A stretch of DNA of 64,000 nucleotides from Verrucomicrobiia bacterium (lineage in GTDB: Bacteria; Verrucomicrobiota; Verrucomicrobiia; Verrucomicrobiales; DEV007): NCBI GenBank assembly GCA_030427505.1, contig JAUICH010000004.1, forward strand, positions 124,001 through 188,000, read 5' to 3'. Below are positions 41,144 through 42,361 of the stretch, in pieces. The number at the start of each line of letters is the position of its first letter. Position 1 is the stretch's first letter. Both the position numbers and the translations under genes were made by a program. The notes beneath the pieces were generated by a model, which ran no database searches, was not told the DNA's origin, and worked only from the letters and a program-made list of their open reading frames with translations.

Positions 41144-41238
41144 GCACGCCAAGGGCGTGCCCGTCGATAGCCCGGGGTGAAACCCCGGGAACCTGTCCGG
41201 CACAGATTTCCGCCCCAACGGGGCGGGCGTGGCGTTCG
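41144..41238 (+). repeat. Three-hairpin REP-like element, copy A1
   Basis: The 95 bp unit contains three perfect hairpins with 3-base loops: GCACGCC-aag-GGCGTGC (41144-41160), CCCGGGGT-gaa-ACCCCGGG (41171-41189) and CGCCCC-aac-GGGGCG (41211-41225), ending GCGTGGCGTTCG. It is identical to copy A2, 370 bp further on. The gap 40901-41143 before it shows nothing recognisable. Confidence 0.92.
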
Positions 41239-41325
41239 CGAAAGCTACAACGTTCTGGAGGCACGATCAGACGGGTGGTTCACTGTATCTACCATTCGAA
41301 TATCGAAACATTTCTCTGTCTGACC

Positions 41326-41434
41326 GCGCCACGCGCGCCCCTGCAGGGCGCAAACGGTGGGTGGGTTTTTTCCCAGGGTTCCCGTTGGTCACCCTGGGCT
41401 ATCGACGTAGGCCCCTTTGGGGCCTTGGTCGTGG
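41326..41434 (-). repeat. Three-hairpin REP-like element, copy B1 (inverted)
   Basis: In inverted orientation relative to A1, with the same GCGTGGCG end and a central CCCAGGGT/ACCCTGGG stem, but a longer loop in the middle hairpin (gaccaacggga). The outer stems, GCGCCCC/GGGGCGC-like and GGCCCC/GGGGCC, are kept. It is a diverged copy. Confidence 0.8.
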
Positions 41435-41513
41435 GAGCGAGCTGGGGCGTTTGGGTTGCCGCTTAGGTGGAGTCTCGTCTTCGCTTTGGTGGTACCTCGG
41501 TGGCGCTCCTTCC

Positions 41514-41608
41514 GCACGCCAAGGGCGTGCCCGTCGATAGCCCGGGGTGAAACCCCGGGAACCTGTCCGGCACAGATTTCCGCCCCAACGGGGCGGGCGT
41601 GGCGTTCG
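41514..41608 (+). repeat. Three-hairpin REP-like element, copy A2
   Basis: This unit repeats A1 exactly over 95 bp, including all three hairpins and the ACCTGTCCGGCACAGATTTC linker. The identity at 370 bp distance indicates recent copying or gene conversion. Confidence 0.92.
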
Positions 41609-41693
41609 TGGTAAGAATAGGGTTTTCCAAAAGATATAACGATGGTCTACCGTGGGGGATACTTTTCTGGATCTCCTTTCTGGAGCTGGATTA

Positions 41694-41793
41694 CGAACGC
41701 CACGCGCGCCCTTTCAGGGCGCATTTGCCCTCTATCGCTGTACCCAGGGTTTCACCCTGGGCTTTCAACGTAGGCCCCGTTGGGGCCTTGGCG
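41694..41793 (-). repeat. Three-hairpin REP-like element, copy B2 (inverted)
   Basis: The inverted unit next to the transposase gene has stems GCGCCCT-ttc-AGGGCGC (41706-41722), CCCAGGGT-ttc-ACCCTGGG (41743-41761) and GGCCCC-gtt-GGGGCC (41773-41787). Compared with A1 on the same strand sense, base-paired positions differ in a compensating way. The boundary CGAACGCCACGC is the reverse complement of the A-copy end. Confidence 0.88.
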
Positions 41794-41911: not shown

Positions 41912-42361
41912 ATGCCTCAATCTCTTGCCAATCTCCTCGTCCACCTGGTCTTCAGCACTAAAGAACGGGGCGCGTGGCTGAAGGATGAATGGCGGCAGGA
42001 CCTTCATGCTTACATTGGTGGGATACTCAAGCGGCGCGGCTCCAGCCTGCTCGCCGCGAACTCAGTGGACGATCATATTCACCTCCTCTTTCCCCTGCCC
42101 AGGACCGTCACCATGGCGGATCTCGTCAAGGAGATCAAAACCGGTTCATCAGTCTGGATTCACGAAAACACCTCATTCAAGCACTTCCAGTGGCAGGCCG
42201 GATATGGCGCGTTCTCGCTCAGTTCGTCTCACAAAGATGCCGTCATGGATTACATCGCAAAACAGAGAGAACATCACCAAAAGGTCTCTTTTCAGGACGA
42301 GTTTCGCCGGCTCCTGAAGAAGAACGATATCCCTTTCGATGAGCGCTACGTGTGGGACTAA
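41912..42361 (+). CDS. REP-associated tyrosine transposase (RAYT, IS200-like Y1 HUH transposase)
   Basis: A 149-residue Y1 transposase of the IS200/TnpA_REP type. It shows the HUH motif DDHIHLLF (His55, His57), the catalytic Tyr114 in VMDYIAKQREHHQKVSF, the family stretch GYGAFSLSSS and the C-terminal FRRLLKKNDIPFDERYVWD. Such enzymes cut and join single-stranded DNA at hairpins; domesticated RAYTs act on REP sequences. The frame could be opened at 41780, but the extra 44 residues lie in the repeat B2 flank, so MPQSLANLLVHLVFSTKERG is the natural start. The four hairpin units directly upstream are its probable substrate. All catalytic residues are intact, so the gene may be active. Confidence 0.9.
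   Translation: MPQSLANLLVHLVFSTKERGAWLKDEWRQDLHAYIGGILKRRGSSLLAANSVDDHIHLLFPLPRTVTMADLVKEIKTGSSVWIHENTSFKHFQWQAGYGAFSLSSSHKDAVMDYIAKQREHHQKVSFQDEFRRLLKKNDIPFDERYVWD

Follow-up and report, generated by a model that had tools for sequence, protein, structure and literature searches.

Beside a small transposase gene in a Verrucomicrobiia genome stands a group of palindromic repeats whose stems differ by paired changes. The question raised by this locus is what the folding serves; the initial annotation held that it is selected, either as single-stranded DNA for the transposase or as an RNA. We studied the locus in the window, i.e., the whole stretch of 64,000 nucleotides that was analysed, and in related loci of other genomes. 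Our preferred answer, to which we give a probability of about 0.8, is that a small mobile element, driven by a Y1/HUH transposase of the subclass 1.2 type, has these repeats as its DNA ends.

The repeats and the neighbouring gene

A repeat made of three hairpins occurs four times at positions 41144-41788, twice in the plus orientation (A1 and A2) and twice inverted (B1 and B2); both the copies and the three-hairpin design were found where the initial annotation had placed them. In the pairs A1-B1 and A2-B2, hairpin H1 is outermost, H2 comes next and H3 is innermost, with a short core between the ends. Minus-strand matches link the repeats to the orphan Rfam family RF01687 ("Acido-Lenti-1 sRNA"). 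The repeats were also scored with R1, a model derived solely from 19 dispersed copies in the window's genome. The features are:

41144-41238, plus strand: A1, three-hairpin end (H1 41144-41160, H2 41171-41189, H3 41210-41226), whose conserved inner end reaches 41238
41145-41189, minus strand: RF01687 match on A1 (26.6 bits, E 0.0014)
41335-41425, minus strand: B1, inverted end (H3 about 41335-41351, H2 41372-41398, H1 41409-41425)
41372-41425: R1 match on B1 (19.8 bits)
41514-41608, plus strand: A2, three-hairpin end, 99% identical to A1
41515-41559, minus strand: RF01687 match on A2 (26.6 bits, E 0.0014)
41706-41788, minus strand: B2, inverted end (H3 41706-41722, H2 41743-41761, H1 41772-41788)
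41743-41787: R1 match on B2 (19.6 bits)
41144-41425: putative first gene-less unit (A1 with B1), MITE/REPIN-like, oriented as in dispersed pairs
41514-41788: putative second gene-less unit (A2 with B2), MITE/REPIN-like, oriented as in dispersed pairs
41912-42361, plus strand: Y1/HUH transposase gene, subclass 1.2 type (Pfam PF01797, E 1.8e-24; motifs; predicted fold)

The H2 loop of B1 has 8 extra bases. Five window stretches were folded as DNA, and each did better than every one of 200 shuffles (z -3.3 to -4.2). Two details of the first description needed correction: H1 of B2, given as 6 pairs, has 7 (AGGCCCC/GGGGCCT), and of the loops said to be unchanged, that of H2 keeps GAA while those of H1 and H3 go from AAG to AAC and from AAC to GAA, respectively. 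The window is best read as two tandem, MITE-like, gene-less end pairs directly upstream of one subclass 1.2 gene. The gene is not bracketed: both end pairs are upstream of it, and among the matches listed no R1 match lies downstream. The downstream segment 42416-46986 (minus strand) carries two long overlapping reading frames, which may be a DUF1501/PSD1-type pair of the sort known from Planctomycetes and Verrucomicrobia.

The transposase is 148 aa long and has the motifs DHIH, WQ and YIAKQREHH. Its AlphaFold model (pLDDT 89) found its best Foldseek matches in ISDra2, IS608 and the REP-bound TnpA_REP (4er8). The protein scored 61.9 bits against NF033573, over the cut-off of 55, and 21.9 bits against NF047646, under the cut-off of 80; in a tree, its group was separate from 10 IS200-type proteins with support 99/99. 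Among the best 80 of 539 confirmed relatives, the HUH, WQ and Y---Q--HH motifs were present in 80/80 loci and the matched frame was stop-free in 76. Two cyanobacterial plasmid matches lacked the subclass 1.2 motif and were set aside. By the predicted sequence, the window transposase carries the TnpA_Y1 subclass 1.2 signature as given in the available part of a 2018 survey (Quentin 2018, PMC6006769). In that part of the survey, subclass 1.2 is placed mostly in Cyanobacteria and Bacteroidetes, and its REP column reads "no"; here, in contrast, subclass 1.2 genes with flanking ends were found in Verrucomicrobiota, Planctomycetota, Acidobacteriota and others.

In the window's genome there are four Y1 genes, and the stretch around each contains R1 matches. 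The closest sister of the window gene (L032, G000:C32) has many R1 matches around it, in both orientations, and is surrounded by long similar open frames. Two other transposase genes, L033 (G000:C40:47272-47738) and L034 (G000:C51:77501-77952), are each broken into two frames, at similar points in both (profile positions 89-96), and both lie between strong RF01687-like ends; shared decay and frameshifting are the candidate causes.

Paired changes in the stems

The compensatory changes claimed in the initial annotation for A1 and the reverse complement of B2 are real. Of 22 stem pairs, 15 are unchanged, 7 differ on both sides and none on one side, and when the 14 substitutions were placed randomly, 0/20,000 placements yielded as many two-sided pairs. 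Because A1 and A2 are 99% identical, the window alone affords few independent comparisons, and the check was extended to many copies. In 19 copies of the window's genome (of 30 loci fetched), aligned without fitting to the structure, 96.4% of 247 cells pair and there are 40 two-sided cells versus 11.1 after shuffling. Two larger sets, of distinct rows only, gave 90 two-sided cells versus 26.1 with 94.8% of cells pairing (54 rows from the window's genome) and 182 versus 38.1 with 98.7% pairing (127 rows from the R1-scan sources), figures biased towards pairing because these alignments were fitted to a model with the same structure. In none of the three sets did any of 500 shuffles reach the observed two-sided count. 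Covariation over many copies is thus strong; neither a lack of covariation nor a loss of stems in most copies was seen.

The further claim, that the folding is selected, holds in part: the stems are kept through paired changes in many copies, but covariation alone does not prove selection, because templated correction between the arms of a palindrome yields the same pattern. We regard it as possible, though somewhat unlikely, that the paired changes reflect such arm-by-arm correction in replication (quasi-palindrome correction) instead of selection for folding, an account that is compatible with the repeats being transposon ends. The 7 two-sided and 0 one-sided changes between A1 and B2 are what correction would give, as are the great rarity of one-sided standard pairs in the 19-, 54- and 127-row sets and the homogenisation of an element's left and right ends. 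Fixed loop positions, an AG foot and the order of the three hairpins are, however, kept across several phyla, and correction alone cannot account for that conservation.

The last 2 bases of the foot, 5' of H2 on the A strand, read AG in 126/127 rows, a fraction biased upwards because the row-finding model carries those bases; the foot is GTAG in only 7/127 rows. G-U cells are rare in the distinct rows, 3/660 and 8/1642 in the 54- and 127-row sets, counts made without an RNA baseline and to be taken as a hint only. A test of which strand folds, taken over all pairs, gave A-C 28 versus G-T 3, and A-C 19 versus G-T 8, an apparent one-sidedness that is due mostly to the H1 loop-closing pair. With that pair removed, the two kinds of mismatch stood at 11 to 3 in one set (p 0.057) and at 11 to 7 in the other (p 0.48), neither of them significant.

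Association of repeats and transposase gene

R1 was run on 80 loci, the best 80 of the 539 confirmed relatives from a scan of named genomes; Rhodopirellula maiorica, Zavarzinella formosa, Luteolibacter and Haloferula are among their sources. It gave 385 matches in all; the density counts used the 188 rows of at least 20 bits among the matches listed. In these best 80 of 539 loci, the density of R1 matches fell with distance from the gene, from 4.36 per kb (within 150 bp) to 1.04 (150-500 bp), 0.28 (500-1000 bp), 0.047 (1-2 kb) and 0.018 (2-5 kb), the first value being about 240-fold the last. An R1 match was present at no more than 150 bp from the gene in 64 loci and at no more than 1 kb in 67; among the matches listed, 13 of the 80 had none within 1 kb. 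The nearest matches, again among those listed, were inverted in 81/95 cases, inverted ends stood on both sides within 250 bp in 31 of the 80 loci, and in most of the 80 the gene-to-end distance varied little, lying at about 45-60 bp on either side. As a control, R1 was run on 10 IS200-type loci, none of which gave a match of at least 20 bits (best, 15.5 bits). A search of the 8 closest transposase loci among the best 80 of 539 with all of Rfam placed RF01687 near the gene in 6.

Two loci, L039 and L042, show the anatomy of a complete element. The left-end H3 directly precedes the start of the gene, the right-end H3 comes after the gene, RF01687 is inverted on either side, and the gene-bearing unit is about 630 bp. 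For H3, a stem of at least 5 was found between H2 and the start codon in 31/39 upstream ends versus 146/780 control stretches, the difference being weaker for stems of at least 6 (12/39 versus 50/780). Ends within about 150 bp were compared for 52 loci, both ends being available at 27 of these: the left and right ends of one element were alike (0.134 versus 0.275; 0/500 permutations), and ends and transposase diverged together (Mantel r 0.459; 0/2000 permutations). Variants of the design were also seen. H2 has a long form in L038, L040, L041, L073 and L159, with about 10-15 extra loop bases, some self-complementary. By eye, the anatomy is the same at a Persicobacter plasmid gene, yet R1 finds no match there, and a YILNQPEHH relative on a Bernardetia plasmid (L147) is flanked by hairpin repeats of a different, A+T-rich design.

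Gene and repeats also go together across genomes. Among 115 genomes of the phylum, including the window's own, 13 had both, 3 the repeat alone (G066, G105 and G109, with no gene detected), 2 the gene alone (G121 and G140) and 97 neither (p 1.1e-12; 7e-12 without the window's genome). Among 37 genomes, the window's own and relatives, the corresponding figures for RF01687 and the gene were 22, 4 (G004, G006, G022 and G034), 3 (G013, G014 and G032) and 8 (p 0.0014). The p-values in both sets are too small because of shared ancestry. RF01687 was present in 16 of 17 named genomes that carry the gene.

Copies without a gene are dispersed as pairs. In the window's genome, neighbouring copies at most 600 bp apart, taken from 93 of the 109 RF01687 matches, formed 27 pairs: 16 "-+", i.e., inverted ends with H3 inside, 5 "--", 3 "++" and 3 "+-". 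Nineteen gene-less units from two genomes were folded; they span 170-340 bp, and most form one long near-palindrome. They resemble MITEs and REPINs in being dispersed, in lacking the gene and in having inverted ends of the kind seen in the full element. In contrast to the inverted pairs found elsewhere, single ends repeat in direct tandem about every 70 bp at G000:C44:67236-67419, G003:C59:28710-29105 and G142:C59:2638-2824. For mobility there is a single presence/absence difference, between two genomes of one genus: an orthologous intergenic gap is 383 nt with the unit in G029 and about 55 nt without it in G033, and neither exact boundaries nor a target duplication was found in this comparison. 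Of two empty-site queries, L159 gave presence/absence with diverged flanks, and L162 gave no orthologous site.

The palindromes might instead be older dispersed repeats into which the transposase gene inserts as a preferred target, without mobilising them, much as ISPpu9 inserts into REPs according to the part of that literature available. A gene that inserted into a gene-less unit between its two H3 hairpins would create the anatomy of L039 and L042, and gene-less units are far more numerous than genes. Such a history is nevertheless unlikely, given the near-constant gene-end distances on both sides in most of the best 80 of 539 loci, the likeness of left and right ends and their divergence with the protein, and the rarity of repeats where the gene is absent.

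On the preferred reading, each end of the mobile element consists of H1, H2 and H3 with H3 inward, the two ends being inverted, and the element exists as a unit of about 630 bp with the gene inside and as a dispersed MITE/REPIN-like unit of about 170-340 bp without it. By analogy with IS200/IS605 and REP systems, the transposase may recognise the hairpins while the DNA is single-stranded; replication is the most likely occasion, and H2, with a 5' foot ending in AG comparable to the GTAG of REP elements, may be the guide. The transposase tyrosine would then cut, and both full and gene-less units would be moved or copied.

RF01687 and known transposon systems

RF01687 has the same sequence and structure as the H2-H1 part of the repeat end, and the family is most likely just that part of one three-hairpin DNA end of a subclass 1.2 element. 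Rfam catalogues it as an sRNA, whereas at the present loci it forms part of a three-hairpin end beside a transposase gene. The score of A1 and A2 lies below the RF01687 gathering score (26.6 versus 37 bits), and a search of the whole 64-kb window against all of Rfam at E <= 0.1 gave no match, because E-values rise with searched length and the filters are stricter; the short scan reveals RF01687. The window's genome (G000; 6.41 Mb, 56 contigs; window at C45:124001-188000) contains 109 RF01687 matches at E <= 10, 54 of them over the cut-off. An Acidobacteriota genome (G053, Blastocatellia) contains 136 at E <= 0.001, the best at 61.6 bits, together with 8 transposase gene matches, and RF01687 copies lie 48-72 bp from three of these genes.

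RF01687 was proposed in 2010 from Acidobacteria and Lentisphaerae, as a table entry that the available part of the survey rates as probably RNA and not cis-regulatory (PMC2864571). As to the two arms of the initial annotation, there is good support for the one that names the transposase, from where the structures lie, how they are oriented and how they diverge and co-occur with Y1 transposase genes, and the RNA arm remains as a reading of low probability. That the repeats work at the RNA level (as an sRNA, an attenuator or a folded transcript 3' end) next to an accidental transposase neighbour is very unlikely: the Rfam class, the 2010 rating, covariation as such and the genomes with repeats and no detected transposase gene all fit it, but the matches cluster around the transposase gene, with inverted ends flanking it, a placement for which an RNA gene has no reason, the copies form inverted pairs, the repeats co-occur and diverge with the transposase, and G-U cells are rare by the count above. 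We consider it probable that in the whole RF01687 family a DNA signal has been misread as an sRNA, and that this signal is the recognition end of a widespread family of subclass 1.2 Y1 transposons with three-hairpin inverted ends and gene-less copies across several phyla.

How does such an element compare with known systems? IS200/IS605 elements (IS608, ISDra2; subclass 1.1) share the Y1/HUH fold, and their subterminal hairpins have the same orientation at the left and right ends. Here, unlike in IS200/IS605, the ends are inverted with three hairpins each, and the transposase is on a separate branch of the tree. The REP sequences and their TnpA_REP/RAYT transposases (REPtrons, REPINs, BIMEs) are similar in having dispersed palindrome pairs around or near a low-copy Y1 gene and a short foot 5' of the hairpin, and the predicted fold matches the REP-bound 4er8. 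RAYT is, however, a class 2 transposase with Y---NP where the present protein has Y---Q--HH (YIAKQREHH); the REP foot is GT[AG]G, whereas the foot here is NNAG, mostly not GT[AG]G; and the ends here, unlike those of REP systems, have three hairpins. TIRtrons with TIRYT have the present layout, a Y1 gene between inverted repeats with gene-less repeats dispersed, as far as described in the available text (Di Nocera 2013, PMC3733652), but the part of the 2018 survey at hand assigns the 26 TIRYTs to subclasses 2.1, 2.2 and 2.5 (Quentin 2018, PMC6006769). In the same portion of that survey, class 3 TnpA_Y1 resembles the present case in its occurrence in Acidobacteria and Planctomycetes with many dispersed structures per genome, and differs in its NHVH and YV[VI]xEQ motifs and its CnGA foot (PMC6006769). 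Within the accessible text of the literature searched, we found no description of a three-hairpin inverted end design for IS200/IS605 or REP systems, no link between RF01687 and a transposase in the REP, RAYT and HUH literature, and no transposase link in the passages on Acido-Lenti-1/RF01687 of PMC2864571, PMC13298647 and PMC10059132.

These results bear on earlier reports. A 2026 study of Tannerella described, in the sections available, no mobile elements near protease genes and Acido-Lenti-1 "ncRNAs" downstream of them, for which a regulatory role was suggested (PMC13298647). Acido-Lenti-1 has also been reported, in the accessible part of the paper, in multiple copies on a Vibrio anguillarum chromosome (PMC10059132). 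If the repeats are transposon ends, both ncRNA reports need a second look, and the regulatory reading in Tannerella should be revisited. In sum, the initial annotation was right in substance, and the outcome goes beyond what it claimed: an orphan Rfam family gains a likely function, covariation can flag folded DNA as RNA, and subclass 1.2, entered as "no" for REP in the portion of the 2018 survey available (PMC6006769), gains a candidate substrate.
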